Source: Herbidospora daliensis
GTDB taxonomy: Bacteria; Actinomycetota; Actinomycetes; Streptosporangiales; Streptosporangiaceae
Reading direction: 5' to 3'
Length of the DNA: 64,000 nucleotides
Assembly (NCBI RefSeq): GCF_001570585.1
Contig: NZ_BBXF01000003.1
Location: 841,353 to 905,352, forward strand
Below are positions 13,775 to 60,605 of this stretch, piece after piece (positions within the stretch are counted from its first letter, which is position 1; the number at the start of each line of letters is the position of its first letter). The notes below the pieces were generated by a model. The model saw only the letters and a list, made by a program, of their open reading frames with translations. It ran no database searches and had not been told where the DNA came from. The position numbers were made by a program, and so were the translations under genes.

Positions 13775-13867
13775 TTGCGGTCAATTGTGAGAATTGCGGC
13801 GCGCTTTCGTCTTGTACCTAACGGCACACGACTTGACGCAGAGCGCACCGGGTCCCAATCTGCACAC

Positions 13868-41819: not shown

Positions 41820-42013
41820 GCAGCAACCCGTTCGAGAACCCCGACGGGATCTACGTCGTCCTGGTGAACGAGGAGGGCCAGCACAGCCTGTGGCCCGAGT
41901 TCGCCGACGTGCCCGCGGGCTGGACGGTGAGCTTCGGGCCGGGGGCGCGGCAGGCGTGCCTGGACCACATCGAGGCGACCTGGACGGACATGCGCCCCAA
42001 GAGCCTGCGCTAG
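41816..42013 (+). CDS. mbtH: MbtH-family NRPS accessory protein
   Basis: This 65-residue protein contains the MbtH signature: [19 protein letters not shown], then [14 protein letters not shown] with the conserved Ser-Leu-Trp-Pro, and [11 protein letters not shown] at the C-terminus. MbtH proteins bind A domains and are often needed for their solubility and activity. Its ATG overlaps the NRPS stop (ATGA), with GAAGGGA upstream, so it should be made in step with the synthetase. It closes the siderophore operon. Confidence 0.97.
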
Positions 42014-42019
42014 GACGAC

Positions 42020-42053
42020 GAGAAGCCGGGCTCCGGTGAGCCCGGCTTTCTCG
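42020..42053. terminator. Bidirectional terminator between mbtH and the caspase-Hsp90 gene
   Basis: An 11-bp perfect stem AAGCCGGGCTC (42023-42033) pairs with GAGCCCGGCTT (42038-42048) around loop CGGT. It extends by GAG/CTC with a one-base bulge. It sits seven bases after mbtH and one base beyond the 3' end of the convergent gene. Confidence 0.8.
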
Positions 42054-42054: not shown

Positions 42055-45000
42055 TCAAGGAGTGTCGTGCTTCCGCAGCACCCCAGGAACACCCGGGAGG
42101 TCCGGCAAGGTGTAGCCAAGGGACCGGAACCGCTCGACCACGACAGGCACCGGCAGATTGGTGTGGACCGCCCCGGCGAACACGTTCCAAAGCGGCACGG
42201 GCTCCTCCTGATCGATCCACCAGCTCCGGCGCGCGTTTCTGTTGAAATTCGGCGTTTTGATCGTCGAGAAATCACTGAGTTCGTGGCTCATGAGAATGAG
42301 GTCGACGGCGTCCACGGACCTGGACGGCAGAAGCGGAATGGACAGCCCGAGCGCGGCAAGCCGTTCTGTCGTTCTCTCCGCCGTCCAGGTCAGCTGTCCC
42401 GCGGCCGTGTAGACATGGCCGAGGGGAACGACTCCATCCTCCAGCCACGGCTTGCCGCCGTTGAGCCATCGGCTGGCCAGGAGCCTGTCGCCGGGTTCGA
42501 CACGGCCGACGGAGAAATAGCCGGCCGGCACCAGAAAACCCAGCTGTGCCAGCCGGTCGGCGATTTCACCGACGGGCTGATCGAGTTTTCCGGCCACCGC
42601 CACGAGGTGACCGATGGTGACCGGTTTGAGCGCGTCGCCCCTGTCCCATTGGGGTAGGTGAAATTCTTCCTTCTCGTCCCCTATGCCGAGCATGATCGCG
42701 TCTGCCGGCCGGTAGTCCCCGGCAGTGAGAAGGGGTGAGGGGACGTCGAAGCCGAGCTTCGCCAGCCGCCTGGCCACCTCTTCGACGCTCCGGCCTGACT
42801 TACTCGCGACCTCGACCACATGGTGTGAATCGACGATCTCCGTCGAGTCGAGCCAGCGCGGGGTTCCGCCGGCATCCCGTGCGACCAGGAGCAGATCATC
42901 GTCGTGTGCGAGCGGCAGGGCGTCCGGTATCCGGAACCCGAGGTCGGCGAGTCGTGCGGCGATTTCGCCAACCGGCCTTCCTGTTCTCTTCCCTGCCATG
43001 AGCAGATGTCCGAGGGGAACGACGGGGACACCGGGCAAGGTAGGAGGCCTCGCGTCGAAGTTCCTGCTCAGCAGGATGAGGTCGTCGTGGCCGAGCCGGC
43101 CTCTGACCGGTAGTTCGCGGGGCACCGTGAACGAGAGATGCCGCAGTTTTTCGGCGACCGCTTCGACGTCGCGCCCCAACTGCGCGGCGACGGCGACCAC
43201 ATGGCCGGCCGCGACGGGTGCCGGATCTCCCGAGTCGTCGATCGGCTCCAGCCAGGGTTGCTCGCCGTCCAGATCCCGGCTCAGCAGAATACGGTCGGCA
43301 GGTTCGGCCCTTTGGCCATCGACTCCAGCTGGAACGTGGACCCCGAATTCGATGAGTCGATCGAGTACCTGCCTGATCGGCCACCCCAGCTGAGTCGCCA
43401 GGGCGACGACGTGCCCGATGGACGCGGCAGGTGGGGTGTCGGCAGGAAGGCCCTCATCCAGAGAGCCTTCGTCGTCGTAGATATTCGCGCGCAGCAGGAC
43501 GAGATCCGACTCCTCCGGCGAGCCCAGGGCGCAGGTCGCGACGGGAACGTCATATCCCAGCTCGGCGAGACGCCGGGCCGTCTCGCCGATGCCGTATCCC
43601 GCTGCGAGCGCCGCGCGCACCACCTGATGTCTGAGGACGGGTGTGTCCCGCGGCAGCCACGGTTCCTCCAGCCGTGAATAGAAATAGCCAGGTCTCTGGC
43701 CGAGAATGACCGCGTCGGTGGGCCGTGCGGGAGGGCCGGGAGTGGGGAGATCGGGGTTCTCGGCCGCGCACATGGCCGCCAGACGCCACCTGATCAGATC
43801 GTCGGACAGGGGACGGATGCCCTGATACTGCCGTCGTCGTGCCTGGCCGTCGGTGGAGTAGTCCGGCTGCCGGTAGTTGATATCCGGGGGGACGAGATCC
43901 CGATCCCCGGCGAAGAAGCCGAGCCGGGAGAAGTCGATCTCATGCCCGTTCAGAGTGATCGACTTCCCGGTCGAGACGGTTTGAGCGAAGACCAGGTCCG
44001 CGATCAGGGGATGCCGGTGGTAGAGCAGTTCGCCGAGCCAGTCGAACGTCGGCGAAACAGGCGCGTCGTCGCTGGCGAGCTGCTCGACGGCCTGTGACAA
44101 GACACGTATGAGGACATCCGAATTGCGGGCCGAGTTGAGAAACTCCGTTCGGTCGATGGTCAGTTCCGGGCTGTTCTCGCCACTGAGGTTGACGATCATT
44201 CCGAAGCTGGTCGTATTCGTCTGCAGACCGTCGGCGAGGACGCTCGCCGAGCCTTCCCGCCACCAGACCGGCCCTCTGGAACGTTTGTCGGCGATCGGCT
44301 CGCCGTACAGTTTCAGCTCTTTCGGGGTCCATACGATCCGCTCGTCGCCATAGGCGGCTTCGACGGAGAACTCGGAGTAGTTCAGTACCTGTCGGAGCGT
44401 CTCCGTGCAGGAAACTCGATCCGTGTTTCCCGTGGCTCGCAGGTGAAGACGGAGAACCGTGCCCGCGTCGTCGCCCGGTCCGCAGTCCTGAATGTGGAAG
44501 AGCGTTCCAGGGCCCGCGATGGAGACGCGGAGACGGTGGCCGGGGCGGCCGTCCCTTCCCAACCGGCAGGTCGTCACGGTGATCTCGTCGGCGAGCATGA
44601 AGTAGCTCAGGACGCCGATGCCGAACTGGCTGTTGGGATAGAGCACGACGGGAGGATCGAGCTTCTCCCATTCGGCCTGCTCCTCGATGAACTCGGGCAG
44701 TTCGGCGAATCGCATGCCGGCTTTCGCGAAGACGTCCTGGAGTTCTCGTACCCCCATGCCGATCCCGTTGTCGGCGCAATCGATATAGGGGCGGCCCTGC
44801 TCGTCGATGCCCTGGGAGAAGCTGATGTGACCCTCCCAGTCGGGGAGGCCGACACCGGTCCGGCGGAGATACTCGGTTCGGGCCCGCCGGTAGCGGCAGG
44901 CGTCGAGGGCGTTCTGGTAGACCTCGCGCAGCGCCAGGTCACGATCGGTGTAGAGCCGTTCGCCCATCAGCAGTTCCTGGACGCGCTCCTCGTCCAGGCG

Positions 45001-46857
45001 GAACCGGATGCCGGCGGACGTGTACGCGGCGACCCCGTTCGGCTCGGCGGCTCTGACCTGGTCGGCGTCGGCATGACCGGGCAGCCCGGCGAGTTCGGCG
45101 AGTGACGGGTCGTCGGCGTTGCCGATGTCGGCGAGGATACGGTCGAGATCGGAGACGTGCTCGCGCAGGGCTACTTCGATGGCCGGATGCGGGCAGGCGG
45201 CTCTGAGTACGCGTCCTGTCCCACGGGGTTCCCACCGGGCCTGGTCGATCGTCTGGAGCACGTCTTCCGGGGTGAGGGACTGGACGATGCCGATGTGGTC
45301 GACGAGGACGCCGCCGAGTCCGGTCATCTCGATGGCCATGCGGTGGGCCACCACGACGAGGTAGGCCACCAGCCTCTCTCTGATCGTCTGCTCCCCGATA
45401 CGACCGGGTGCGATCAGACGGGAGGCCGACAGCCCGTGCGGCCGGTCGGTGCGTGCGATGAAACCCGCGTCCGCGTAGACGAGCCGGATCAGCTCACTCA
45501 ACCGCGTTTTGGTCAGAACCTCGTCGCTCAGCCGAGATCCGGAGCTGTGGCCGTCGAGCGAGACGGCCACGGCCTGTGAACTGAATGACGTGGCCAGCCT
45601 GCTGGTCCAGCGATGAAGAAGCCACCATCCGATCTGCCTGGAGACGCCGGTCTCACCTCGGCCGGCGGCGTCGACGGCACGGCGGAGCAGCCGGGGGTGG
45701 CTGCGTGTGTACGTCTCATAGGCCTTACGCCGCTCGGTGGGCGCACCGGCGGGAGCCAGGTCGGCGGGGTTGACGACGCTCGCCTCGGCCGCGATGTGCG
45801 CCCAGTGGGTGTCGTGCACGAACGGGGCCACCACCAGCAGCGCGGCCTCCGCGGGTGACAGGCGCAGGTCGTCGAGCAGGGATCCGAGGATGAAGTTCAT
45901 CCGCTCGCTCATCCGGAGCGCGAATCGGGAGTCGTGCCACGGATCTTCGGCCAGCTTTCCGCCGGCCGCCCACCGCCGGGCCGCCAGACGCCGGACGACC
46001 GCGACGGTGTCCTCGCGCAGGCCCGCGCTTCCGAGAACGTTGTGAATCTTCTTCCAGGCGACGTGCGCGTCGGCGATCTCCGCCCAGTCGTCACCGTGCT
46101 CCAGGACGGAAGCCCGGCCGGGCAGCACGACGAAGGCGTCATGGTCGGCTTCGCCTGCCAGCCGAACCTGCTGAGCGGGCACCCGATGCTCGATGGCCAG
46201 CGCCGTCAGGTTCTCGGCCACCTGGCGCTTGAAACTCGACAAGGTGTCGGGCGCGGCCCCCGCGCCGATGGCCAGTTCGACCGCCCGGGCGAACAGGCTG
46301 AACGACCTTCCGCCGGGCTGGACCGGCACGTATCGGGCGACCTCCCCGGGCGAGCAGGGGAACAACCAGGCGACGTTCCGCCGGGCGGCGTTGGCGATCT
46401 TGTCTGGCGCCCAAGCCGTGCGGGCGAACGCGGACTTGGTGTTCTCGTGGAAGCCTTCGCGGCAGGCGTCCACCAGGAACAGGATTCCGGCGGCCCTGCT
46501 CTGCTCGATCATGGGACCCCACGTGGTCAGCGGCACCGCCACGTCGGCCAGGCTCAGCCACTTCAGATCCGCGTCGCTCGGCAACAGGTAGTCGACGTCG
46601 TCGCCGTGGGCGCCGTGCCCGCTGAGGTAGATCAGGAGCGTGTCACCCGGGCTCGCGGTGACCAGGAAGCGGCTGACCTCGGTCCGGATTCGGGTCTGCC
46701 CCAGCCGCCCGCTCCCTTCGGGAGCCTCCACGGTGCAGCCACGCGCCTCCAACGCCATGGCGACGTCGATGAGATCGTCGGTGACGAACGGAAGGTCCTT
46801 GATGCTGGGATCGTCGTACTCGGCCACTCCCAGAAGGAGTGCCCTGAACCTGCCCAC
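42055..46857 (-). CDS. Caspase - HD-like - Hsp90-type ATPase protein with C-terminal wHTH-like repeats
   Basis: The 1600-residue protein has these parts. (a) A caspase-fold peptidase domain (1-240): catalytic His81 in LIYLSGHGAHGDD and Cys132 in FLVDACREG. (b) A helical HD-like region (about 260-560: MNFILGSLLDDL, VAPFVHDTHW) lacking a clear metal-binding HD pair. (c) A GHKL/Hsp90-type ATPase (about 610-880): REVYQNALDACRYRR (Asn box), DCADNGIGMG and FGIGVLSYFMLADEI. (d) About eight repeats of 60-80 residues (about 1050-1600), each like IGHVVAVAAQLGRDVEAVAEKLRHLG...VP. The last match the winged-helix-like repeats reported beside Hsp90-type domains in bacterial conflict systems. Likely role: Hsp90-gated protease effector triggered by invasion, by inference. 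GTG start at 46857, preceded by GAGGCGG; it follows the small Pepco-like gene by 10 bases. Confidence 0.82.
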   Translation of the reverse strand: MGRFRALLLGVAEYDDPSIKDLPFVTDDLIDVAMALEARGCTVEAPEGSGRLGQTRIRTEVSRFLVTASPGDTLLIYLSGHGAHGDDVDYLLPSDADLKWLSLADVAVPLTTWGPMIEQSRAAGILFLVDACREGFHENTKSAFARTAWAPDKIANAARRNVAWLFPCSPGEVARYVPVQPGGRSFSLFARAVELAIGAGAAPDTLSSFKRQVAENLTALAIEHRVPAQQVRLAGEADHDAFVVLPGRASVLEHGDDWAEIADAHVAWKKIHNVLGSAGLREDTVAVVRRLAARRWAAGGKLAEDPWHDSRFALRMSERMNFILGSLLDDLRLSPAEAALLVVAPFVHDTHWAHIAAEASVVNPADLAPAGAPTERRKAYETYTRSHPRLLRRAVDAAGRGETGVSRQIGWWLLHRWTSRLATSFSSQAVAVSLDGHSSGSRLSDEVLTKTRLSELIRLVYADAGFIARTDRPHGLSASRLIAPGRIGEQTIRERLVAYLVVVAHRMAIEMTGLGGVLVDHIGIVQSLTPEDVLQTIDQARWEPRGTGRVLRAACPHPAIEVALREHVSDLDRILADIGNADDPSLAELAGLPGHADADQVRAAEPNGVAAYTSAGIRFRLDEERVQELLMGERLYTDRDLALREVYQNALDACRYRRARTEYLRRTGVGLPDWEGHISFSQGIDEQGRPYIDCADNGIGMGVRELQDVFAKAGMRFAELPEFIEEQAEWEKLDPPVVLYPNSQFGIGVLSYFMLADEITVTTCRLGRDGRPGHRLRVSIAGPGTLFHIQDCGPGDDAGTVLRLHLRATGNTDRVSCTETLRQVLNYSEFSVEAAYGDERIVWTPKELKLYGEPIADKRSRGPVWWREGSASVLADGLQTNTTSFGMIVNLSGENSPELTIDRTEFLNSARNSDVLIRVLSQAVEQLASDDAPVSPTFDWLGELLYHRHPLIADLVFAQTVSTGKSITLNGHEIDFSRLGFFAGDRDLVPPDINYRQPDYSTDGQARRRQYQGIRPLSDDLIRWRLAAMCAAENPDLPTPGPPARPTDAVILGQRPGYFYSRLEEPWLPRDTPVLRHQVVRAALAAGYGIGETARRLAELGYDVPVATCALGSPEESDLVLLRANIYDDEGSLDEGLPADTPPAASIGHVVALATQLGWPIRQVLDRLIEFGVHVPAGVDGQRAEPADRILLSRDLDGEQPWLEPIDDSGDPAPVAAGHVVAVAAQLGRDVEAVAEKLRHLSFTVPRELPVRGRLGHDDLILLSRNFDARPPTLPGVPVVPLGHLLMAGKRTGRPVGEIAARLADLGFRIPDALPLAHDDDLLLVARDAGGTPRWLDSTEIVDSHHVVEVASKSGRSVEEVARRLAKLGFDVPSPLLTAGDYRPADAIMLGIGDEKEEFHLPQWDRGDALKPVTIGHLVAVAGKLDQPVGEIADRLAQLGFLVPAGYFSVGRVEPGDRLLASRWLNGGKPWLEDGVVPLGHVYTAAGQLTWTAERTTERLAALGLSIPLLPSRSVDAVDLILMSHELSDFSTIKTPNFNRNARRSWWIDQEEPVPLWNVFAGAVHTNLPVPVVVERFRSLGYTLPDLPGVPGVLRKHDTP

Positions 46858-46867
46858 AGCGCCCGCC

Positions 46868-47194
46868 TCAGGTGCCGAACACCAGCGTGATGGCCGCTGT
46901 GGCGCCGACCTTGGCGGTGCCGATGAGCTGGATGCCGCCTTCGCCCGTGATCTCGACGCCGATCTGGGCTTCTTTGAGCCGCAGCCCGTCGGTCGCCTTC
47001 GCCATGTCCTCGAACACCGCGCGCAGCGACTCAGCCGTTTGCCGCAGGTTCTCCCGGAGCACGTCGACGGGGATCTGGCGGAGGATCGCCGCGTGATCCG
47101 CCCCGGGGAACAGACCCATCGTGGAGTCCTGACCGTCGTCGGAGACGATGAAGGTCAAGGAGTCGATCACCGGAGGGGAGGAAGGTTCTTGCAC
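46868..47194 (-). CDS. Small Pepco/Trypco-like protein paired with the caspase gene
   Basis: The 108-residue protein has an N-terminal strand (DSLTFIVSDDGQDSTMGLFPG), a helical middle (LRENLRQTAESLRAVFEDMAKAT), and a C-terminal part LKEAQIGVEITGEGGIQLIG followed by TAKVGATAAITLVFG. This layout resembles the small peptidase-co-occurring (Pepco/Trypco) domains found next to caspase or trypsin effectors in bacterial conflict loci. It would act as a sensor or regulator of the neighbouring caspase protein, by inference. The start is GTG 47194 with GAGGA upstream. It heads a two-gene operon divergent from the WGR-DUF4132 operon. Confidence 0.6.
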   Translation of the reverse strand: MQEPSSPPVIDSLTFIVSDDGQDSTMGLFPGADHAAILRQIPVDVLRENLRQTAESLRAVFEDMAKATDGLRLKEAQIGVEITGEGGIQLIGTAKVGATAAITLVFGT

Positions 47195-47396: not shown

Positions 47397-50300
47397 ATGT
47401 CCACGGAACGGAAGCTGACCTACGTCGGCGGCGATTCGGCCAAGTTCTGGCACGTCAGGCAGGACGCCACCGAACTGGTCATCCGGTACGGACGCCTCGA
47501 TGCCGAGGGCCGGACGCAGGTCACGTCCTTCGACTCCGAAGCCGCCGCGACGGCGGCCGTAGAGAAGCTGGTGGCCGAGAAGCTGCGCAAGGGCTACACC
47601 GAAGACGACACTGCCGCCCCCGAGACGGCCGCGCCCGACGACGAAGACGTTCTCACGATGCCGGCCGCCTGGTTACGCGCCCTCCACCCCCGCCGAGGCG
47701 GCGTCCGGGTGCCCGAGCGGCGGCGCGACGCCGACGCCGACGCGAAGGTCGCCGCGAGGGTGGCCGAGCACCGGCAGATGATCCGCGACTGCCTGGAGCT
47801 GACCACCGACCCCGGGATCGCCGAGGCGGGCGCAACCTGGCTCGACGGCGACGCGGCGGGCGGTCCGCTCGGCGCGGCGGTGGTGGCCGAGGTGGTCGCC
47901 GCCCATCTGAACTGGGACGACTCGGCGATGCTGGCCGCGTTCGCGGAGACGTGGCTGGCGGAGCGCGGGCTGGTGTTCGCGGCCGAGGCGGTGGTGGAGC
48001 TCATCTCGCTGAAGTGCGGAGACGACAGCTACTACTACCGTAGTTTCCAGCCTGCCATGCCGGTCCGGCGGCTGCCCGACGGCACCGGCACCTCCCGCTG
48101 GTGGTTCGGCCACGCGGCCGGGTTGCCGGCGCGGGTCCGGGCCGCCGTGGCGGCGGCGGGCGACGCGGAGTACGCCGAGGTCGTCGCCGTGCTGACCCGT
48201 TGTCGTGAGGCGGGGGCGCACCACCGGATGGCCACGTCCTACCTCGCGCCCTCCGAGGTCGCGTGGGTCGACGCCGACTGCGCCGAGGCCGCCGCGCCCG
48301 GCACGGGCCAGAGCCAGGGGCTCATCACCGCGGTCAGCACCCCGGCGCAGGCGGCGCTCATCGCCGACGACCTGCGGCTCTTCTGGGTGAGCAGCAGTCT
48401 CGCGGTGCCGGCCACGGTCGTCGACGGCATGGGCGAGGCCGCCGTGCCGGTGCTGACCGACTGGCTCGACAGGATCGACGGAGCCGACGAACGGAAACGG
48501 CTCCAGTCGGTCCTCGCCGAGCTGCCGGGCGACGCGGCGATGCAGGTGCTGATCGACCGCGTCGACGGGAAGTACGGCCAGCCGGCGCTGCTTCGGGCGG
48601 CGGCCCGCTTCCCGCGCCGGGCGATGCGGCTGATGGCGGCGTCCAAGGGGAAGGTCGTGGCCGAGTTGCTGCGGGCCCACGTGCTGGCCCACCCCGACCT
48701 GGTCGGCGAGGTGCTCGCGGAGGTCGACGGCACCGTCGCCGCGCAGCGGATCGGCGCTCTCGCGGACACGGCGGCCGTCGCGGTCGCGCCGCCCGAGGCC
48801 CTGCCCGAGGTGCTGGTCAGCCCGCCGTGGACGCGGCCCCGGGTGGTCCGCACGCCGGTGGTGATCGACGGCCTGGTCTGCGCCGGCGAACCGGCGACGG
48901 CGTGGGCGCCGGGCGAGCGGGACGCCTGGCGGTCGAGCGCCCCCGACTGGTGCGAACGAGGCCACCTGACCTGGGAGCAGATGGCCGCCGTCGTCTCCGG
49001 ACCCCGCCGCAACGGCTGGTTCGAGGGCCCGACCCTGATCGTGGCCGGGCCGGAGGAACTGGCCAGGCCGGTCCTCGAAACATGGCGTCCGGACCACATG
49101 TGGCAGGCCGCCGACTGGATGCGGGCGGCGGTCGCCAGGTTCGAGTTCGCGGCGCTGCCCCTGGTGGTCCACTACGCCCGGAAGCAGGCTGCGGAGGTCG
49201 CGCCGGCGCTGCTGCCGCTGGCCACTCCCGAGATCGCCGTGCTGATGGCCGACTGGCTGGCCCGGCTCAAGTCGGTGCGGGCGACCGCGCTGGCGTGGTT
49301 CTCGCGGCATCCCGACGCCGCCGCCCGCGCGCTGGTCCCCCCGGCGCTGGGCAAGCCCGGCTCGGCCCGCCGCCAGGCCGAGCAGGCGCTGTCGGCCCTG
49401 GTCGCCGGCGGGCACCGCGACGCCGTGACGCGGGCCGCCGCCGGATACGGCCCGGCCGCCGAGGCCGCGATCGCCGAACTCCTCGCGGCCGGTCCGCTCG
49501 ACGCGCTGCCCGCCAAGATGCCTGCGACGCCCCAGTGGGCCGACCCCTCGATCCTGACCCGGATCCACCTGCGCGGCGGCGGCCTGGCGCTGCCGCTGGA
49601 GGCCGCCCGCCACGTGGTGACCATGCTGGCGATCTCCCGGCCCGGCGACCCCTACGCGGGGATCGCCCTGGTCAAGGAGGCGTGCGACGAGCGCAGCCTG
49701 GCCGACTTCGGGTGGGCGCTGTTCCAGCGGTGGCAGGCCGCGGGGCATCCGTCCAAGGAGAGCTGGATGTTCGACGCCCTCGCCCTGATCGGCGACGACG
49801 AGACCGTGCGGCGGCTGACCCCGCTGATCCGGGCCTGGCCCGGCGAGGGCGGGCACGCCCGCGCCGTCACCGGCCTCGACGTGCTGGCCACGCTCGGCAC
49901 CGAGGTCGCGCTGATGCACCTCCACGGCGTCGCCGAGAAGGTCAAGTTCACCGGGCTCAAGAACCGGGCGCGGCTGAAGATGGCCGAGGTCGCGGGGCGG
50001 CTGAACCTGACGCCCGAGGAGCTGGCCGACCGGCTGGTGCCCGACTTCGGGCTGGCCGCCGACGGCAGCCTGACCCTCGACTACGGGCCCCGCCGGTTCG
50101 TCGTCGGCTTCGACGAGCAGCTCAAGCCCTATGTCGTGGACGAGGCCGGCAAGCGCCTCAAGACCCTGCCCAAGCCGGGCGTCAAGGACGACGCCGAGCT
50201 GGCGCCGGAGGCGTACCGGCGATTCGCGGGCCTGAAGAAGGACGTGCGCACCGTGGCCGCCGACACCATCCACCGCCTGGAGCGGGCGATGGCCGACCGG

Positions 50301-50900
50301 CGCCGCTGGGGCGCCGGCGACTTCGCCCGGCTGTTCGTCGGCCATCCGCTGCTCTGGCACATCACGCGGCGGCTGGTGTGGGGCTACTACGACGCCGACG
50401 GCGCCCTGCTCGGCACGCTGCGGGTCGCCGAGGACCGCGGCTTCGCCGACGTCGACGACGAGACGCTGACCCTGCCCGGCGGGGTGACCGTCGGGCTCGT
50501 CCACCCGCTGGAGCTGGGGGAGACGCTGGGCGCATGGGCCGAGGTGTTCGCCGACTACGAGATCCTCCAGCCGTTCCCACAGCTTGGACGGGACGTCTAC
50601 ACCGCGCCGGACGCCCTCGACCCCGACCGGTTCACCAAGATCCCGACTGGCCGGGTGCTCGGTCTGGAACGGCGCGGCTGGCGGCGCGGCGCCCCGCAGG
50701 ACGCCGGCTGGCAGGGCTGGATCGAGCGGGAGGCGCCCGGTGGCAGGATCGTCACGATCCATCTCGCTCCCGGCGTCTGCGTCGGCTACGTGGACATGGA
50801 GGAGGAGCAGACGGTGATGGTCGAGGAGGGCCACTTCCGCGGCCTCGACCCCATCACCGTCTCCGAGATCATGCGCGACCTCGAGGAGCTCGTCCGATGA
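47397..50900 (+). CDS. WGR-domain DUF4132 protein (YehI/MolR-like)
   Basis: The 1167-residue protein begins with a WGR domain (about 1-75; KFWHVRQDATELVIRYGRLDAEG). That domain is known elsewhere from PARP-type DNA-break sensors. A long helical-repeat region (about 90-900) follows. The C-terminal DUF4132 domain (about 930-1167) has RRWGAGDFARLFVGHPLLWH, LVWGYYDADG, DVDDETLTLPGG and FPQLGRDVYT. E. coli YehI, formerly called MolR, has the same plan. It starts at ATG 47397 with GAGG upstream (TTG 47382 is unlikely). It is the first gene of a tightly overlapping six-gene set and overlaps its own paralogue by four bases. Biochemical function is unknown; nucleic-acid sensing by the WGR domain is an inference. 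Confidence 0.85.
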   Translation: MSTERKLTYVGGDSAKFWHVRQDATELVIRYGRLDAEGRTQVTSFDSEAAATAAVEKLVAEKLRKGYTEDDTAAPETAAPDDEDVLTMPAAWLRALHPRRGGVRVPERRRDADADAKVAARVAEHRQMIRDCLELTTDPGIAEAGATWLDGDAAGGPLGAAVVAEVVAAHLNWDDSAMLAAFAETWLAERGLVFAAEAVVELISLKCGDDSYYYRSFQPAMPVRRLPDGTGTSRWWFGHAAGLPARVRAAVAAAGDAEYAEVVAVLTRCREAGAHHRMATSYLAPSEVAWVDADCAEAAAPGTGQSQGLITAVSTPAQAALIADDLRLFWVSSSLAVPATVVDGMGEAAVPVLTDWLDRIDGADERKRLQSVLAELPGDAAMQVLIDRVDGKYGQPALLRAAARFPRRAMRLMAASKGKVVAELLRAHVLAHPDLVGEVLAEVDGTVAAQRIGALADTAAVAVAPPEALPEVLVSPPWTRPRVVRTPVVIDGLVCAGEPATAWAPGERDAWRSSAPDWCERGHLTWEQMAAVVSGPRRNGWFEGPTLIVAGPEELARPVLETWRPDHMWQAADWMRAAVARFEFAALPLVVHYARKQAAEVAPALLPLATPEIAVLMADWLARLKSVRATALAWFSRHPDAAARALVPPALGKPGSARRQAEQALSALVAGGHRDAVTRAAAGYGPAAEAAIAELLAAGPLDALPAKMPATPQWADPSILTRIHLRGGGLALPLEAARHVVTMLAISRPGDPYAGIALVKEACDERSLADFGWALFQRWQAAGHPSKESWMFDALALIGDDETVRRLTPLIRAWPGEGGHARAVTGLDVLATLGTEVALMHLHGVAEKVKFTGLKNRARLKMAEVAGRLNLTPEELADRLVPDFGLAADGSLTLDYGPRRFVVGFDEQLKPYVVDEAGKRLKTLPKPGVKDDAELAPEAYRRFAGLKKDVRTVAADTIHRLERAMADRRRWGAGDFARLFVGHPLLWHITRRLVWGYYDADGALLGTLRVAEDRGFADVDDETLTLPGGVTVGLVHPLELGETLGAWAEVFADYEILQPFPQLGRDVYTAPDALDPDRFTKIPTGRVLGLERRGWRRGAPQDAGWQGWIEREAPGGRIVTIHLAPGVCVGYVDMEEEQTVMVEEGHFRGLDPITVSEIMRDLEELVR

Positions 50901-53900
50901 GCATCGTCGTCGACGAAGACCACTTCACCATTCCGGTCGCCTGGTTACGCGGTCTCCATCCCCGGCGGGGCGGGGTGCGGGCGCCCGCCAAGCGGCTCGA
51001 CCCCGGCGCGGCGGCCAAGGTCGCCGCGGCGCTCGGCAAGTACCGGGAGCTGGTCGACGGCTGCCTGGCGTTGTGCACCGACGCGGAGCTTGCCGCCGCC
51101 GGCGCCGCCCACCTGGCGGGAGAGCCCGACAGCAGCGCGCTCGGCGCCGCGGTGGTCGCCGAGGCCGTGGCGAGTTGCCTGAACTGGGACGAGTCGAAGG
51201 TGCTGCTCTCGATCGCCGAAACGTGGCTGACGGAGCGCGGTCTGGTGTTCGCGGTGACGGCGACGGCGGAGCTGAGCGCGCTGCAGTGCGGCGGCGAGTA
51301 CCAGCGGAACGTGAGCGCGCAGCATCTCCTGCCGGTCAGGCGGCTGGCCGCCGACGGCCAGGGCCGCTGGTGGGGCGGGAGCCGCCGGGAGTTGTTCCGG
51401 CGGGTCCGGGCCGCCGTCGCCGAGGCGGCGGACGACGAGTACGCCGAGGTGGCCGGCGCGCTGGCCCGCTGCCGTGAGGCGGGGCCGCGCCAGCGGGTCG
51501 CCGCGTCCTACTTGGCGCCGACCGAGCGCGCGTGGGTGGACGCCGACTGCGCCGAGGCCGCCGGGCTCGATCCCGATGTGTCCTACGGCCTGATTCTCGC
51601 GATCAGCACCCCGGCCCAGGCGGCGCTGATCGCGGACCTGGTGCAGGGGCACTGGGTGAGGCACGAGCCCGGCCTGCCGGCGACGGTCGTCGACGGTCTG
51701 GGCGGCGCGGCCGCGCCGCTGCTGGCCGCCTGGTTCGACGACGCGTACGACCCCGACGAGCAGCGCCTGCTGCTGGCCATGCTCGCCGAGCTCCCCACCG
51801 ACGAGGCGATGCGGGCGCTGATCGAGCGCGCCGACCGCACGTTCGTCCAGCCCGCGCTGCTGAGCGCGGCGGCCCGCTACCCGCGCCGGGCGATGCGGCT
51901 GCTGGCCGAGGGCGGCGGCAAGGTCGTGGACGAACTGCTGAAGGCCCACGTGCGGGCCCGGCCCGACCTGGTCGCCGAGGTACTGGCCGACCTCACCGGT
52001 CCGGCCGCGGAGCGCGTCGCCGCGGTCGAGGCCGCCCCGATCGCGCCTGCCGCGCCGCCCGGGGCGCTGCCCGACGTGCTGGTCGTCCCACCGTGGTCGC
52101 GGGATCGGACGGTGCGCACGCCGGTTGTGGTGAGTGGCCTGGTCTGCACGGACGAGCCGACGGTGGCGTGGGGGCGGGGCGAGCGGGACGCCTGGCGGTC
52201 GAGCGCGCCGGAATGGTGCCGGGTGGACAGACGCGACTGGCCGCCCGTCGCCGTCGGCGGCGCGCCGGGATACAAGGGCTGGTACGAGGCGCCGGCCCTG
52301 TTCGTGTCCGGGCCCGACGACCTGGCCGTGCAGCTGATCGAGGTGTGGCGGCCCGACGAGATGTGGCGCACCCCCGAATGGGTCAGGGCCGTGGCCGCCA
52401 GATTCGAGTCCGCCGCGCTGCCCCTGGTGGTCGACATGGCGCGGCGGAACCCCACGGGGATCGCTCCGGCGCTGGTCCCGTTCGCGACCCCCGGGATCGC
52501 GAGCCTGATGGCCGAGTGGCTGGGCCGGCTGAAGACGGTGCGGGCGACCGCGCTGACCTGGCTGGCGCGTCATCCCGACGCCGCCGCCCGCGCTCTGGTC
52601 CCGGCCGCGCTCGGCAGGGCGGGCGCGGCCCGGCACCAGGCCGAGCAGGCGTTGTCGGCGCTGGCCGCGCGTGGCGGCCGCGACGCCGTGATCCGGGCCG
52701 CCGCCGGTCACGGTCCGGCCGCCGAGGCCGCGATCACCGCGCTGCTCGACGCCGACCCGCTCGACGCGCTGCCCGCCACGATGCCCGTCGTCCCCGAATG
52801 GGCCGACCCCCTGATGCTGCCCCCGATCCTGCTGCGGGGCGGCGGTGCGACGCTGCCGGTCGAGGCGGCCCGTCATGTCGTGACGATGTTCTCGGTCTCC
52901 CGGCCCGGTGACCCCTATGCCGGGATCGCCGTGGTCAAAGAGGCCTGCGACGGCCAGAGCCTCGCCGACTTCGGGTGGGCGCTGTTCCAGCGGTGGCGGG
53001 CCGCCGGGCATCCGCCCGCCACAGGCTGGATCTTCGACGCGCTCGCGCTGGTGGGCGATGACGAGACCGTCCGCAGGCTGACCCCGGTGATCCGGGCCTG
53101 GCCCGGCGAAGGAGGGTTCGCCCGCGCCGTCACCGGCCTGGAGATCCTCACGACCCTCGGGACCGAGGTCGCGCTCATGCACCTCCACAGCCTCGCGGAG
53201 AAGGGCAGGTTCAACGGGCTGAAGAACCGGGCGCGGCAGAAGATGGCCGAGGTCGCCGCGCGGCTGGACCTGTCGCCCGAGGAACTGGCCGACCGGCTGG
53301 TGCCCGGCTTCGGGCTGGCCGCCGACGGCAGCCTGACCCTCGACTACGGCCCCCGGCGGTTCGTGGTCGGCTTCGACGAGCAGCTCAAGCCCTATGTCGT
53401 GGACGCCGCCGGCAAGCGCCTCAAGAGCCTGCCCAAGCCGGGCGTCAAGGACGACGCCGAGCTGGCGCCGGAGGCGTACCGGCGATTCGCGGGCCTGAAG
53501 AAGGACGTGCGCACGGTGGCCGCCGACACCATCCACCGCCTGGAGCGGGCGATGGTCGACCGGCGCCGCTGGAGCGCCGGCGACTTCACCCGGCTGTTCG
53601 TCGGCCACCCGCTGCTCTGGCACATCACCCGGCGGCTGGTCTGGGGCTGTTACGACGCGGAAGGCAGGCAGGTCGACGCGTTCCGGGTCGCCGAGGACCG
53701 CGGCTTCGCCGACGTCGACGACGAGACGCTGACCCTGCGCGCCGACGTCGAGATCGGGCTCGTCCACCCGCTGGAACTGGGGGAGGCGCTCGGCCTCTGG
53801 GCCGAGGTGTTCGCCGACTACGAGATCCTCCAGCCCTTCCCGCAACTCGGCCGGGAGGTCTTCACCGTGGCGGCCGGCTTCGACACCGAGCGGTTCGGCA

Positions 53901-54160
53901 GGGTCCCGACCGGCCGGGTGATCGGCCTGGAGCGGCGCGGCTGGCGGCGCACCTCCCCGCAGGACGCCGGCTGGCAGGGCGGGATCGAGCGGGAGGTGCC
54001 CGGTGGCCGGATCACGGTCGGTCTCAACCCCGGGGTCTCGGTCGGCTACGTCGACATGGACGCCGACCAGGAGTTGATCGTCTCCACCGACGACCTCACG
54101 GGCCTCGATCCCGTCACCGCCTCCGAGATCATGCGCGACCTCCAGGAGCTGATCCGATGA
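50897..54160 (+). CDS. DUF4132 paralogue lacking the WGR domain
   Basis: This 1087-residue paralogue of the previous protein starts directly at the segment equivalent to LTMPAAWLRALHPRRGGVR (here FTIPVAWLRGLHPRRGGVR), so the WGR domain is missing. Helical repeats and the C-terminal DUF4132 part (RRWSAGDFTRLFVGHPLLWH, FPQLGREVFT) are kept. Near 53380-53640 the DNA is about 95% identical to the first copy (50120-50380), while the N-terminal halves have diverged strongly, a pattern of gene conversion. Both copies hold a TTA codon at the same Trp-Leu-Arg site. The pair may form a heteromeric complex in which only one member carries the sensor. Confidence 0.85.
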   Translation: MSIVVDEDHFTIPVAWLRGLHPRRGGVRAPAKRLDPGAAAKVAAALGKYRELVDGCLALCTDAELAAAGAAHLAGEPDSSALGAAVVAEAVASCLNWDESKVLLSIAETWLTERGLVFAVTATAELSALQCGGEYQRNVSAQHLLPVRRLAADGQGRWWGGSRRELFRRVRAAVAEAADDEYAEVAGALARCREAGPRQRVAASYLAPTERAWVDADCAEAAGLDPDVSYGLILAISTPAQAALIADLVQGHWVRHEPGLPATVVDGLGGAAAPLLAAWFDDAYDPDEQRLLLAMLAELPTDEAMRALIERADRTFVQPALLSAAARYPRRAMRLLAEGGGKVVDELLKAHVRARPDLVAEVLADLTGPAAERVAAVEAAPIAPAAPPGALPDVLVVPPWSRDRTVRTPVVVSGLVCTDEPTVAWGRGERDAWRSSAPEWCRVDRRDWPPVAVGGAPGYKGWYEAPALFVSGPDDLAVQLIEVWRPDEMWRTPEWVRAVAARFESAALPLVVDMARRNPTGIAPALVPFATPGIASLMAEWLGRLKTVRATALTWLARHPDAAARALVPAALGRAGAARHQAEQALSALAARGGRDAVIRAAAGHGPAAEAAITALLDADPLDALPATMPVVPEWADPLMLPPILLRGGGATLPVEAARHVVTMFSVSRPGDPYAGIAVVKEACDGQSLADFGWALFQRWRAAGHPPATGWIFDALALVGDDETVRRLTPVIRAWPGEGGFARAVTGLEILTTLGTEVALMHLHSLAEKGRFNGLKNRARQKMAEVAARLDLSPEELADRLVPGFGLAADGSLTLDYGPRRFVVGFDEQLKPYVVDAAGKRLKSLPKPGVKDDAELAPEAYRRFAGLKKDVRTVAADTIHRLERAMVDRRRWSAGDFTRLFVGHPLLWHITRRLVWGCYDAEGRQVDAFRVAEDRGFADVDDETLTLRADVEIGLVHPLELGEALGLWAEVFADYEILQPFPQLGREVFTVAAGFDTERFGRVPTGRVIGLERRGWRRTSPQDAGWQGGIEREVPGGRITVGLNPGVSVGYVDMDADQELIVSTDDLTGLDPVTASEIMRDLQELIR

Positions 54161-55221
54161 ACGACCACGTCCAGCGGCCCCCGGCCGAGGTCCGCTACGC
54201 CGACGAGCTGGCCCGGCTCCGCGACGCCGACGACGGCGCCCGGCCGCCCGGCTGGGCACTCAGCCTGCGGGCCGCCCGCCGGTTCGTCATCGGCGACGAG
54301 AAGCTCGGCGTCACCCGCAAGTTCGTCGGCGACCCGTCGCTGATCGACCGCGCCCTGGTGACGCTGGCGACGAGCCGGGGGCTGATGCTCGTCGGCGAGC
54401 CCGGCACGGCCAAGTCGCTGCTCTCGGAGCTGCTCGCGGCGGCGGTCAGCGGCACGTCCACCCTCACCATCCAGGGCGGCGCGGCCACCACCGAAGACCA
54501 GATCAAGTACTCGTGGAACTACGCGCTGCTGGTCGCCGAAGGGCCGTCGCCCCGGTCGCTGGTGGCCGCGCCGCTGCTGCGCGGCATGGCGGAGGGCCGG
54601 GTGGTGCGCTTCGAGGAGATCACCCGCTGCCCGCTGGAGGTGCAGGACTGCCTGCTGTCGCCGCTGTCCGACCGGGTGCTCGCGATCCCCGAGCTGACCG
54701 GCCCCGACGCCATGGTGTTCGCCCGCGAGGGCTTCAGCGTCATCGCCACCGCCAACACCCGCGACCGGGGCGTCAACGAGATGAGCGCCGCGCTCAAACG
54801 GCGCTTCAACTTCGAGACCGTCTTCCCGATCGCCGACTTCGGCACCGAGTTGTCGCTGGTCGAGGCCGAGGCGACGGCGCTGCTCCAACGCTCCGGGGTC
54901 GGCGCGCTCCCGCACCGCGACGTGCTGGAGGTGCTGGTCAGGGCGTTCCGCGAGCTGCGGCAGGGCCAGACCGCGCGGGGCGACGCCACCGACCGGTTGT
55001 CGGGCGTCATGAGCACCGCCGAGGCCGTCTCGGTCGCGCACGCCGTCGGGCTGCGCGGCTGGTTCCTGCGCGGCGAGCCCGGCACCGCCGCCGACCTGGT
55101 GACCTGCCTCGCGGGCACGGCCGCCAAGGACAGCCCCGACGACCTGGCCAAACTCCGCAGGTACCTGGAACACCAAGGTTCCGGGCCCCTGTACGACGCC
55201 CGTCACCTCCTGCCGGGCTGA
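54157..55221 (+). CDS. MoxR-type AAA+ ATPase (YehL-like)
   Basis: The 354-residue protein has Walker A GEPGTAKS (residues 80-87), an unusual Walker B GRVVRFEEITRC (Glu153/Glu154), sensor 1 region VIATANTRDRGVNEMSAALKRRFN with the arginine finger, and a lid domain. MoxR ATPases act as chaperones that remodel or insert cofactors into partner proteins together with VWA proteins. It overlaps the DUF4132 gene by four bases and is followed three bases later by the DUF5682 gene. The order DUF4132-MoxR-DUF5682-VWA-SWIM equals the E. coli yehI-L-M-P-Q set. Confidence 0.9.
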   Translation: MNDHVQRPPAEVRYADELARLRDADDGARPPGWALSLRAARRFVIGDEKLGVTRKFVGDPSLIDRALVTLATSRGLMLVGEPGTAKSLLSELLAAAVSGTSTLTIQGGAATTEDQIKYSWNYALLVAEGPSPRSLVAAPLLRGMAEGRVVRFEEITRCPLEVQDCLLSPLSDRVLAIPELTGPDAMVFAREGFSVIATANTRDRGVNEMSAALKRRFNFETVFPIADFGTELSLVEAEATALLQRSGVGALPHRDVLEVLVRAFRELRQGQTARGDATDRLSGVMSTAEAVSVAHAVGLRGWFLRGEPGTAADLVTCLAGTAAKDSPDDLAKLRRYLEHQGSGPLYDARHLLPG

Positions 55222-55223
55222 CG

Positions 55224-57488
55224 ATGACCGCCACCTTCATCGGCGTCCGGCACCACAGTCCCGCCTGCGCGCGGCTGGTCGCCGACACGATCACGGCCCT
55301 GCGGCCGGCGTACGTGCTCGTCGAGGGCCCGGCCGACATGAACCCCCGGCTGGGGGAGCTGCTGCTGGGCCACGACCTGCCGATCGCGGTCTACACCGGC
55401 TACCGCGACGCCGAGCGCCGGCACGGCTCGTGGGCGCCGCTGTGCGACTACTCGCCGGAGTGGACGGCGCTGACCGCCGGCCGCGACGTCGGCGCGGAGG
55501 TGCGGTTCATCGACCTGCCCGCCTGGCATCCGGCGCTGGCCGACGTGCGCAACCGCTACGCCGACGCCGAGGCCCGCTACGCCGAGGTGACCGAGCGGCT
55601 CTGCCGCGACTTCGCCGTCGACAACCCCGACGCGCTCTGGGACCACCTGTTCGAGATCGAACCCGCCGACGGCCTGGCCGACCGGCTGGCCGCCTACTTC
55701 GATCTCGTCCGGGGAGACGCGCGCACCGCCCCCGACGACGAGGCGCGGGAGGCGTACATGGCGCACTGGGTCAGGGCGGCGGTCGCCGACGCGGGCGACC
55801 GGCCGGTCGTCGTGGTCACCGGCGGCTTCCACCGCCCGGCGCTGGTCCGGTTTGCCGAGGAGGGCGACCGGACCTGGCCGGAGCTGCCCCAACCGCCCGG
55901 GGACGCGGTCGTCGGCAGCTACCTGGTGCCCTACTCGTTCCGGCGGCTGGACGCCTTCGACGGCTACCAGTCGGGCATGCCCTCGCCCGCCTACTACCAG
56001 CACCTGTGGGAGTCGGGCCCCCACGAGGCCGCCCGGGGGCTCACCGAGGCGGTCACCGCGCGGCTGCGCGGCCGGGGGCAGCCGGTCTCCACCGCCGACC
56101 TGATCGCCGCCCGCGCCACCGCCGAGGGCCTGGCGGCGGTACGCGGCCACGTCCACCCCGCCCGGGTCGACGTGCTCGACGGGCTGGCGAGCGCGCTGGT
56201 CGGCGAGGCCCTGGACACGCCGCTGCCGTGGGCGACCGGCGGCCGGATCAGGCCCGGCGGGCACCCCGTCATCGTCGAGATGGTCGCGGCGCTCAGCGGC
56301 GACCGGGTGGGCCGGCTGCACCCGTCGACCCCGCTGCCGCCGCTCGTGCACGCCGTCGCCGACCGGCTGCGCGCCACGGGGCTCGGCGGCTCCGGCGAGG
56401 TCCGCCTCGACCTCGGGAAGCCCGCCGACCTCGACCGCAGCCGCCTGCTGCACCGCCTGCGCGTGCTGGCGATCCCCGGGGTGGTGCGCGACTCCGGGCC
56501 GGGGCCGGGAGGCGACCCCGTACCGGCGGAGCAGTGGACGCTGACCGACTCCGACGACCGCCTGCCCGCCCTCATCGAGGCCGGCGGCTACGGCGTCGAC
56601 CCCGAGGAGGCCGCCGCCGCTGTGCTCGCCGAACGCATCGCCGCCACGCCCGGCGACATGGACGTGCTGGCGGGCCTGCTGTTCGACGCGGCGCTCTGCG
56701 GCGTCGGCGCGCTGACCGGCCAGGTGCTCGACGACCTGGCACGCGCCGTCGGCGCGGCGGCCGACCTGGGCTCGCTGGGCCGCACGCTGGCCGTCGCCCT
56801 GGCGATGTGGCGGCACGACGGCCTGTTCCACACCGGCGGCGGTCCGGCCTTCGGCGCGCTGATCGCCGCGGCGGTGCGGCGCGCTTTGTGGCTGGCCGAG
56901 GGCGTGCGCGGCGGTCCCGCCCCGGCCGACCCGAAGCGGATCGGCGCGATGGCGGCCGTGCGCGACGCGCTGGTCCACGCCGCGGCCCCGCTCGGGCTGG
57001 ACACCACGGCCGCGCTGGGCGTCGCCGACCGCGTCGCCGCCTGCCACGACGCGCCGCCCGACCTGCGCGGGGCCGCCTTCGGGCTGGGCTGGTCGTTGCG
57101 CGGCACGGCCGCCGCCGACCCCGGCCGGGCGGTGCGCGGCACCTTCACCCCGGCCCTGGCGGGCGACTGGCTGGCCGGGCTGTTCGCGCTCGCCCGCGAG
57201 GAGGTGCTGCACACGCCCGGGATGCTGGAGCTGCTCGACGAGCTGGTCGAGGCGATGACCGACGACGGGTTCCTGATCGCGCTCCCGGCGCTGCGCCAGG
57301 CGTTCGGCTACTTCCCGCCCCGCGAACGGCACCTCATCGCCGCCCGGCTGGTTCGCCTGCGCACGGGCGGGACCTCCGGGCCCGACCTGATGCGGCTCGA
57401 CGCGACCCCGGAGCTGGTGGCCGCCGGGATGAGACTGGACGAACGGGTCGACACGGCGCTGCGCCGGGAGGGACTGATCACGTCATGA
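55224..57488 (+). CDS. DUF5682 protein (YehM-like, TraB/ChaN-type fold suspected)
   Basis: The 754-residue protein has an N-terminal domain opening FIGVRHHSPACARLVADTI and YVLVEGPADMN. A later Asp/His set (DLPAWHPAL, VTGGFHRPAL) recalls the EreA/ChaN/TraB hydrolase-like superfamily. It continues with PYSFRRLDAFDGYQSGMPSPAYYQ, which is diagnostic for DUF5682. The remaining 450 residues are mostly helical. Enzyme activity has not been established for the family. Its place between the MoxR ATPase and VWA protein genes suggests it is the third partner or the client of that chaperone pair. Confidence 0.82.
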   Translation: MTATFIGVRHHSPACARLVADTITALRPAYVLVEGPADMNPRLGELLLGHDLPIAVYTGYRDAERRHGSWAPLCDYSPEWTALTAGRDVGAEVRFIDLPAWHPALADVRNRYADAEARYAEVTERLCRDFAVDNPDALWDHLFEIEPADGLADRLAAYFDLVRGDARTAPDDEAREAYMAHWVRAAVADAGDRPVVVVTGGFHRPALVRFAEEGDRTWPELPQPPGDAVVGSYLVPYSFRRLDAFDGYQSGMPSPAYYQHLWESGPHEAARGLTEAVTARLRGRGQPVSTADLIAARATAEGLAAVRGHVHPARVDVLDGLASALVGEALDTPLPWATGGRIRPGGHPVIVEMVAALSGDRVGRLHPSTPLPPLVHAVADRLRATGLGGSGEVRLDLGKPADLDRSRLLHRLRVLAIPGVVRDSGPGPGGDPVPAEQWTLTDSDDRLPALIEAGGYGVDPEEAAAAVLAERIAATPGDMDVLAGLLFDAALCGVGALTGQVLDDLARAVGAAADLGSLGRTLAVALAMWRHDGLFHTGGGPAFGALIAAAVRRALWLAEGVRGGPAPADPKRIGAMAAVRDALVHAAAPLGLDTTAALGVADRVAACHDAPPDLRGAAFGLGWSLRGTAAADPGRAVRGTFTPALAGDWLAGLFALAREEVLHTPGMLELLDELVEAMTDDGFLIALPALRQAFGYFPPRERHLIAARLVRLRTGGTSGPDLMRLDATPELVAAGMRLDERVDTALRREGLITS

Positions 57489-58606
57489 CCGACCCCACCC
57501 TGGAACGCTGGCGGCTGCTGCTCGGCGAACCCGGCGGCGCCTGCCTCGGCGGGCAGCCTCTCGGTGAGCAGGCCGCCGCCCGCGACGCGGCCATGGACTG
57601 GCTCTACGGCCGCGACGACGACCTGCGCCGCCGGGGGGTTCGGCGCGACGGCGGCTCGGGCGCGTCGACGCTGACGACCGTCGACTGGCTCGACGACATC
57701 ACCCGGCTGTTCCCCAAGGAGACCGTCGAACGGCTCCAGCGCGACGCGGTCGAACGCTACGAGATCCACGACGTGGTGACCGACCCCGCCGTGCTGGCGC
57801 GCATCGAACCCAACCCGGCGCTGCTCAAGGCGGTGCTGCGCACCAAGCACCTGATGAACCCGCAGGTGCTCCGCCTGGCCCGGCGCATCGTCGAGGCGGT
57901 CGTCCGCGACCTCACCGACCGGCTCGCCACCGAGGTCCGCGCCGCCTTCTCCGGCGCGAAGGCCCGCCGTCCGGGACGGCTGAAGCAGGCCCGCAACTTC
58001 GACCTGACCCGCACCCTGCGCGCCAACCTCGGCCGCTACCGGCCCGAGACCGGCCAGGTCGTCATCGAGACCCCCTACTTCTTCACCCGCACCCGCCGCC
58101 ACCTCGACCAGTGGCAGGTGATCCTGCTCGTCGACCAGTCGGGCTCCATGGTCGGCTCGGTGATCCACTCGGCCGTCACCGCGGCCTGCCTGTGGGGTCT
58201 GCCGGGCGTGCGCACCCACCTGGTCGCCTTCGACACCGATGTCGTCGACCTGACCGCCGACGTCGACGACCCGGTCGACCTGCTGATGAAGGTCCAGCTC
58301 GGCGGCGGCACCGACATCGGCCGCGCCGCCGCGTACGGCGCCGGTCTGATCGACCGGCCGCGCAAGGCGATCGTCGTGCTGATCTCCGACTTCTACGAGG
58401 GCGGCACCCCCGAACGGCTGGTGCGCACGGTACGCGGCCTGGTCGAACAGGGCAGCCAGGTGCTCTGCCTGGCCGCCCTCGACGAACAGGCCAACCCCGA
58501 CTACGACCGGGCGCTCGCGCAGCGCCTGGCGAACGCGGGCGCGCACGTGGGCGCGATGACCCCGGGAGAACTGGCCGCCTTCGTCGCGGAACACGTGGGC
58601 CGATGA
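57485..58606 (+). CDS. VWA-domain (CoxE/YehP-like) protein
   Basis: The 373-residue protein has a basic helical N-terminus and a C-terminal von Willebrand A domain (about 210-373). It has a complete MIDAS: DQSGSM near residue 216, the Thr in GGGTDIG, and the Asp in LISDFYEGG. VWA proteins of this class work with MoxR ATPases as adaptor or recruiter. It overlaps both neighbours by four bases (ATGA). Cytoplasmic, no signal peptide. Confidence 0.88.
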   Translation: MTDPTLERWRLLLGEPGGACLGGQPLGEQAAARDAAMDWLYGRDDDLRRRGVRRDGGSGASTLTTVDWLDDITRLFPKETVERLQRDAVERYEIHDVVTDPAVLARIEPNPALLKAVLRTKHLMNPQVLRLARRIVEAVVRDLTDRLATEVRAAFSGAKARRPGRLKQARNFDLTRTLRANLGRYRPETGQVVIETPYFFTRTRRHLDQWQVILLVDQSGSMVGSVIHSAVTAACLWGLPGVRTHLVAFDTDVVDLTADVDDPVDLLMKVQLGGGTDIGRAAAYGAGLIDRPRKAIVVLISDFYEGGTPERLVRTVRGLVEQGSQVLCLAALDEQANPDYDRALAQRLANAGAHVGAMTPGELAAFVAEHVGR

Positions 58607-60516: not shown

Positions 60517-60605
60517 CGATCGACGCCTATTCCGCGATGCCTTGGTGGACCCGCGAGTCGTACCGACCCGAGGGACGGACCTGGAAGAGACGACGGGGGT
60601 CGCGC

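Follow-up and report, generated by a model that had tools for sequence, protein, structure and literature searches.

Introduction

Two kinds of described system are close to the locus reported here. EACC1-caspase systems are two-gene systems with many different C-terminal domains, and are set out as System 4 by Kaur et al. (2020; PMC7159879). NLR/STAND receptors with BASS amyloid motifs, the RHIM-like BASS3 among them, are treated in PMC7889193, which also asks whether bacterial signalling amyloids serve NLR-independent pathways. The locus itself lies in a 64 000-nucleotide stretch of DNA from the soil bacterium Herbidospora daliensis (contig NZ_BBXF01000003.1), referred to as the window, and consists of a small Pepco gene followed by a gene for a 1600-residue protein in which a caspase, an iHD-CE domain, an Hsp90-type ATPase and an array of repeats are joined. 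To our knowledge, NLRs, inflammasomes and bacterial STAND defence are all built on P-loop nucleoside triphosphatases (NTPases).

We propose, with a probability of roughly 0.6, that the two genes encode an intracellular immune receptor for the suicide of infected cells, NLR-like in design, except that the position of the STAND NTPase is taken by an Hsp90-type (GHKL) ATPase. A receptor that kills the cell on sensing an invader is probable because relatives of the window protein swap the protease for other modules. The domains, their catalytic residues, their co-linearity and their conservation were established directly, as was the fact that effectors are exchanged while the core stays constant.

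Gene layout and caspase domain

Both genes are on the minus strand. The Pepco partner (46868–47194; 108 residues) is the first of the pair, and its open reading frame (ORF) ends 10 bases before the GTG start of the large gene (42055–46857). The proteins far exceed the gathering cut-offs of the families iHD-CE (PF24401), wHTH-HSP90_Na-assoc (PF24410; wHTH, winged helix–turn–helix) and Pepco (PF24393). Residues 1–1040 of the large protein were modelled in AlphaFold with a predicted local distance difference test score (pLDDT) of 88 and a predicted template-modelling score (pTM) of 0.77. PADLOC returned a match to its caspase model alone (E = 1.7e-7).

The caspase domain was assigned to residues 1–245 (46123–46857, minus strand). 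Peptidase_C14 (PF00656) covers residues 5–214 (Pfam; E = 1.2e-9), and the NCBIfam model caspase_w_EACC1 matches residues 5–197 with E = 2.4e-13, which is below its cut-off (50 versus 140 bits). The caspase part of the AlphaFold model matches the MALT1 paracaspase (PDB entry 4i1p, E = 6.4e-10; PDB entry 3v4o, template-modelling score 0.74 on the target). The dyad named in the original prediction is present, with His81 within SGHG (codon 46615–46617) and Cys132 within VDACRE (codon 46462–46464), and the domain is, judged by its sequence, a predicted protease with an intact dyad. A PF00656 search of the whole host genome gave no matches and missed the window gene itself, although its protein matches; such a search is therefore too insensitive for counting the caspases of the genome.

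Effector exchange on a constant core

A contig scan gave 383 relatives, of which the best 80 were kept, including cyanobacteria and one bin each of a planctomycete, a member of the Pyrinomonadaceae and an archaeon. Together with regions from further genomes, the survey comprised 182 proteins, reduced to 171 by counting once the 11 whose iHD segment was identical to another, and its sample is weighted towards close relatives and two actinomycete groups. By their N-termini the 171 relatives fall into 103 with an ordinary caspase, six with an EACC1-type caspase, seven with a TIR domain and a caspase fold, and 55 with neither. The order caspase–iHD–Hsp90 with an active-type caspase is widespread (109/171), with repeats detectable in 101 of these, so that the order of parts cannot be called unusual as had been thought. 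In the caspase-domain alignment, His and Cys are both kept in 102 of 102 ordinary caspases (one of the 103 was lost through a repeated locus name) and in 6/6 EACC1-type caspases, and the dyad is lost in 7/7 TIR-bearing proteins; a 62-row alignment gave the same pattern. Because the dyad is intact in 108 caspases and lost in all seven TIR-bearing proteins, catalysis appears to be retained unless another effector is added.

An EACC1-type gene lies upstream at 6/6 loci with an EACC1-type caspase and at 0/165 others, with EACC1 confirmed by Pfam at five loci and by the survey profile only at the sixth (L108). With 100/100 support, the EACC1-type caspases are a single clade, whereas the cores bearing them are not. 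Constraining these cores to one clade was rejected by the approximately unbiased test (p-AU = 5e-62), and in quick trees it was still rejected without the long-branched L130 and L084 (p-AU = 4e-66). Caspase and small partner were thus exchanged as a unit on two or more occasions; the full core tree (168 rows including the window, with the four of the 171 rows that had short core matches omitted) implies three such changes.

The seven TIR-bearing proteins, from Frankia, Pseudofrankia and Parafrankia (L070, L072, L075, L076, L086, L100 and L102), are about 2150–2300 amino acids long and consist of TIR, a caspase fold lacking the catalytic Cys, iHD, Hsp90 and 10–14 detected repeats. TIR_2 was confirmed in all seven by Pfam (E of 1e-32 or better).

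Among the 55 caspase-less proteins, 13 carry an N-terminal motif of the type GG..GPVVQAGSI..LHVH. The raw pattern matches 14 of the 55; it also matches one of the 116 effector-bearing proteins, a misfit, and shuffling the 55 sequences gave a mean of 0.5 and a maximum of four matches in 1000 rounds. Two matches were dismissed by eye, L186 from the caspase-less group and L220 from the caspase group, and L031 and L122 were joined to the motif-bearing group by eye. Judged by reading, the motif appears to resemble the RHIM-like BASS3 motifs of NLRs. In Amycolatopsis xylanica (L122), the next gene after the caspase-less receptor (13575–13982, plus strand) encodes a Bell-like protein, helical by eye and with no Pfam match, that has a similar C-terminal motif.

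A matched amyloid-motif partner was considered as a general feature of the RHIM-like members and rejected, since among the 15 only L122 has a convincing one, and that by eye; a pattern search of the stretch examined around the other 14 gave no convincing counterpart of the motif. At L128, a protein that is NLR-like by sight and has such an N-terminal motif lies 1.3 kb off, and at L181 a neighbour of 203 amino acids matches the bare core pattern only. Some caspase-less Actinomadura members have HTH-like N-termini (HTH_31, E = 2.5e-4, below cut-off). In Dactylosporangium and Lentzea (part of L060–L068, L083 and part of L091–L110), there are cores that lack a recognised N-terminal effector and, among the ORFs listed, an obvious partner.

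iHD-CE domain and Hsp90-type ATPase

Residues 258–604 (45046–46086, minus strand), first described as an HD-like region, belong to iHD-CE (PF24401; E = 5.3e-91, 306 bits versus 125 bits for HD-CE), an HD-related domain that is presumed to be non-catalytic here. The likeness to HD domains stands in this sense, whereas an HD-type active site does not: the window protein reads VHDT at the HD pair, and the Asp at position 349 is Glu in 24, Gln in 19 and Asp in eight of the 62 aligned relatives. A catalytic HD phosphohydrolase was rejected on this ground, as the Asp of the metal-binding pair is not kept. Conserved instead are His521 (61/62), Cys555 (60/62) and His557 (62/62), which mark a site common to these relatives.

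The Hsp90-type ATPase was placed at residues 606–1010 (43828–45042, minus strand) and comprises the N and middle domains. The Pfam HATPase and HSP90 models are silent on the window protein at E ≤ 1. NCBIfam HtpG matches residues 630–830 (profile positions 15–197 of 614; E = 3.4e-14), under its cut-off of 371 bits; PDB sequence matches of the protein include HtpG and TRAP1, and the model of residues 1–1040 matches Hsp90 N plus middle domains (TRAP1, PDB entry 4z1i, E = 3.7e-10). GHKL ATPases are marked by an N-box Glu/Asn/Asp, a DxGxG and a GxxGxG motif, and all three are present in 62/62 aligned proteins. The residues Glu645, Asn649, Asp652, Asp696, Gly698, Gly700, Gly746, Gly748, Thr800 and Arg903 are invariant in these 62 relatives, so that both the catalytic Glu and the middle-domain Arg (Arg903) of the Hsp90 type are kept. 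No match to the C-terminal dimerisation domain of Hsp90 was found in the window protein with the HtpG profile, and residues 1040–1600 are repeats. As repeats stand in the place of that domain, we do not file the protein as a chaperone.

C-terminal repeats

Pfam reports eight wHTH-HSP90_Na-assoc stretches in the window protein (E = 5.7e-86), which agrees with the earlier estimate of about eight. Together with the repeat profile they were placed, all on the minus strand, at 43543–43728 (repeat 1), 43324–43518 (repeat 2), 43117–43314 (repeat 3), 42919–43089 (repeat 4), 42733–42909 (repeat 5), 42523–42636 (repeat 6, detected core), 42331–42501 (repeat 7) and 42097–42318 (repeat 8). Residues 1000–1600 were modelled with a pLDDT of 85 and a pTM of 0.80, and each unit is predicted to contain three helices, one short and two longer. 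At E ≤ 0.001 the model of these residues has no match in the PDB, and hence none to DNA-binding wHTH proteins; its best matches, at E = 0.03 and above, include designed helical repeats. Going by this model, the name wHTH is best taken as the label of the Pfam family and not as a fold confirmed by a solved structure.

Eight is also the commonest count in the family and is not unusual as the original prediction had it. The 166 relatives longer than 1200 amino acids have between 0 and 14 detectable repeats, with a mode of eight (26 proteins) followed by seven (25 proteins); as the profile was seeded from the window's own repeats, some repeats may have been missed where distant relatives show low counts. 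An active-type caspase is present in 109 proteins: repeats are detectable in 101 of them, and 81 have three or more. Of the eight that have none, L093, L103, L112 and L121 are short or split genes, and in L114, L204, L206 and L219 no repeat was detected by the profile.

The tails are acidic, with a mean net charge of −3.5 per 100 amino acids and a maximum of +0.8 (164 proteins). The caspase (−3.3) and Hsp90 (−4.0) parts of the window protein are as acidic per 100 amino acids, so that the charge of the tails is only a mild argument against nucleic-acid sensing. Repeats of the window and of H. sakaeratensis match at 66% in register and 35% off register, and the average between repeats is 34% within the window array and 49% within a Dactylosporangium array. 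From these values, the arrays are old and perhaps homogenised at times.

Pepco partner

The small protein matches Pepco (PF24393) with E = 2e-16 (60.9 bits versus a cut-off of 27), in keeping with the Pepco/Trypco-like partner that had been predicted. Going by its name, Pepco is presumably to be expected beside caspase-superfamily peptidases, and the survey found it in that company. Searching from 700 bases of overlap to 400 bases upstream, a Pepco gene was detected at 48/103 loci with an ordinary caspase and at 0/68 other relatives; as with the EACC1 counts, these are related sequences, so that Fisher tests overstate their independence. Among the sources of the paired loci are actinomycetes and cyanobacteria as well as one planctomycete and one archaeal bin. 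The proposed pairing is accordingly conserved and not universal.

In Streptomyces, 21 Pepco matches were found in 20 of 199 genomes. Ten of the 21 genes directly adjoin an iHD protein and one more lies at 1.3 kb from one. The remaining ten include three that adjoin a caspase without Hsp90, three that adjoin a CHAT protein, one by a ribosomal L4 gene, one below cut-off and two loci left out of the Pfam scan. Given the survey and these neighbours, it is caspase-superfamily proteins that Pepco accompanies, not the Hsp90 core.

At the three CHAT loci (L289, L291 and L292), no Hsp90 protein was found in the stretch examined. At L293, a caspase protein of 498 amino acids (5208–6704, plus strand) beside the Pepco gene has a C-terminus that matches the DnaB-binding domain of DnaG (E = 2.2e-9). 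Pepco and EACC1 were also considered as a single family, which found no support in a profile comparison (E = 0.34).

Genomic context and divergence

The nearest named relative is that of H. sakaeratensis (Streptosporangiaceae; 73% in tblastn). An iHD-CE protein is present in 2/7 Herbidospora genomes, 19/297 genomes of the family and 61/392 Streptomyces genomes; in a sample of the phylum, iHD-CE was above cut-off in 3/396 genomes, the window's own included. In five other Herbidospora, continuous similarity ends at 42009–42046 of the window, just past the MbtH-like gene, and neither system gene was found in the stretch examined (about 2 kb in two of them).

One flank consists of this MbtH-like gene and an ORF of 6738 amino acids resembling a nonribosomal peptide synthetase (NRPS; both by sight). 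The other (47397–63638, plus strand) holds WGR plus DUF4132, AAA_5/MoxR-like, CoxE-type VWA and nSTAND1–WD40 genes, a block that is likely to be another conflict cluster.

Synonymous and nonsynonymous divergence (dS and dN) were calculated between the window and H. sakaeratensis. In the flanks, dS is 0.085 for MbtH, 0.21 for the NRPS tail, 0.18 for WGR, 0.09 for AAA_5 and 0.085 for VWA. Within the system it is 0.30 for Pepco, 0.62–0.67 for the caspase, iHD and Hsp90 N domains; the middle domain reaches 0.98 and the repeats 1.28. The dN/dS ratio is 0.07–0.24 for these parts and 0.11–0.27 when taken repeat by repeat, hence 0.07–0.27 throughout the system, and dS of the repeats is close to saturation. 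Two of the flanking genes have higher ratios (WGR, 0.54; VWA, about 0.8). This surplus of silent change within the gene suggests that old alleles were exchanged around the repeat arm, rather than that selection was positive.

Discussion

The order of the parts, the strict ATP site, the exchange of effectors and the retention of catalytic residues fit a division of labour between a core that does the sensing and switching and an N-terminus that does the killing. We envisage the acidic C-terminal array as a sensing arm that would keep the protein inactive until a protein signal, or a structure that arises in infection, is bound. Once the signal is bound, the Hsp90 N and middle domains would load ATP and close or dimerise, and the iHD domain would relay the change, so that N-terminal caspases are brought together. 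The gathered caspases, whose targets would be proteins of the cell, would cleave these and growth would stop, possibly protecting against phage. Gating of the protease by the ATPase, as originally suggested, would fit both the invariant ATP-site residues and the effector exchange. Pepco may serve the caspase, and not the core, as adaptor, inhibitor or first substrate. The patchy occurrence of the locus (2/7 Herbidospora), together with the exchanged effectors, points to genes of the conflict type.

Several results weigh against an immune receptor. The adjoining NRPS-like ORF and the WGR/MoxR/VWA block do not make a classical defence island, and in tblastn searches of plasmids and phages no match reached 80% coverage of the query: the plasmid matches (17 records) are all partial, the best, in Azospirillum, covering 50%, and the three phage records match the Hsp90 region only. 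Positive selection on the repeats was looked for and not seen (dN/dS ≤ 0.27). The loss of the dyad under TIR may be a single event, as the seven proteins form one clade, and in 40 of the 55 caspase-less members no effector was recognised. Pepco was undetected in range at 55/103 caspase-bearing loci, at one of which it lies 1.3 kb away, and is therefore not essential everywhere.

The position outside an obvious defence island would also suit a regulated protease with a role in the development or programmed cell death of hyphal bacteria, in which an internal stress cue and no phage signal opens the Hsp90 switch. Most of the best 80 relatives are hyphal actinomycetes or filamentous cyanobacteria, going by the growth habits of the organisms named, which favours such a role; we nevertheless hold it to be unlikely, since the locus is patchy within the genus and the exchange of TIR and EACC1 modules looks like that of conflict genes. 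That the signal is phage DNA or RNA, read by the repeats, we regard as improbable. The name of the Pfam family and the two adjacent helices of each modelled repeat speak for it, and the original prediction had allowed either a nucleic acid or a protein as ligand; the nucleic-acid half of that claim is weakened because the tails are acidic, though no more so than other parts of the window protein, and because the predicted repeat fold has no significant match in the PDB. Slightly less probable still is a client-handling chaperone–protease, in which the Hsp90 unit and the repeats would pass misfolded proteins to the caspase. Its Hsp90 N and middle domains do keep all of the catalytic residues tested. 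On the other hand, a TIR domain or a short N-terminal motif on the same core would make no sense in a degrading machine, the repeats occupy the place of the Hsp90 C-terminal domain, and caspases cut at specific sites.

If the immune-receptor reading is extended from the window pair to the family, the latter would represent a second, P-loop-independent lineage of NLR-like receptors that drives caspase plus Pepco, caspase plus EACC1, TIR or a RHIM/BASS-like amyloid motif recruiting a separate killer. We put this forward tentatively, at somewhat less than even odds. The natural series of active caspase, dead caspase under TIR, EACC1 graft and amyloid-like motif makes the core's own role testable.

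As for the original prediction, the observation as a whole was confirmed and its interpretation partly supported. It knew of no experimental description of this architecture, and none was found in the open-access literature searched, with subscription papers mostly outside that scope. Term searches gave a single, unrelated wHTH and nothing for Hsp90, iHD or Pepco in the main text of PMC7159879, none of wHTH, Hsp90, Pepco and Trypco in PMC8195603, and no Hsp90, Pepco or wHTH in PMC10907252. As far as this literature reaches, the TIR domain over a dead caspase, the repeated EACC1 grafts, the N-termini with RHIM-like motifs and the linking of Pepco to the protease appear to be new; through the last of these, the Pepco gene is placed on the protease side of such systems.

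Comparison with known systems

Because its domains and Pepco already have names in Pfam, the window pair is a typical member of its kind. Its proteins depart in nothing tested from the families iHD-CE, wHTH-HSP90_Na-assoc and Pepco, whose names are not a test of function. With HtpG and Hsp90 the window protein shares the N and middle ATPase domains, the catalytic Glu and the middle-domain Arg; it differs in having no matched C-terminal domain and in its fusion to caspase, iHD and repeats. The MALT1 paracaspase is the best PDB fold match of the caspase, with different partners, and is absent among the PDB sequence matches listed for the window protein (60 of 99).

Like the EACC1-caspase systems of PMC7159879, the window pair has a small 5′ gene, an N-terminal caspase and an exchangeable C-terminal part, and in six relatives the iHD–Hsp90 core is combined with an EACC1-type gene and caspase. 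In contrast, the small protein of the window is Pepco, which is not detectably related to EACC1, and its caspase lies outside the EACC1-type clade, which sets the pair apart from these systems.

The NLR/STAND receptors with BASS motifs, as presented in PMC7889193, resemble the family in having an N-terminal effector or RHIM-like motif, a central ATPase switch and C-terminal repeats, and the arrangement in A. xylanica, where the neighbour has a C-terminal motif, is similar to that of NLR–Bell pairs. The ATPase of the family is of the Hsp90/GHKL type and not a P-loop NACHT or NB-ARC domain; no P-loop NTPase model is among the Pfam matches of the window protein, which thus falls outside NLR/STAND. 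If a second lineage of receptors is indeed represented here, the question raised in PMC7889193, whether amyloid signalling also works independently of NLRs, would be answered with yes, and the same immune design would have arisen on two unrelated ATPases.

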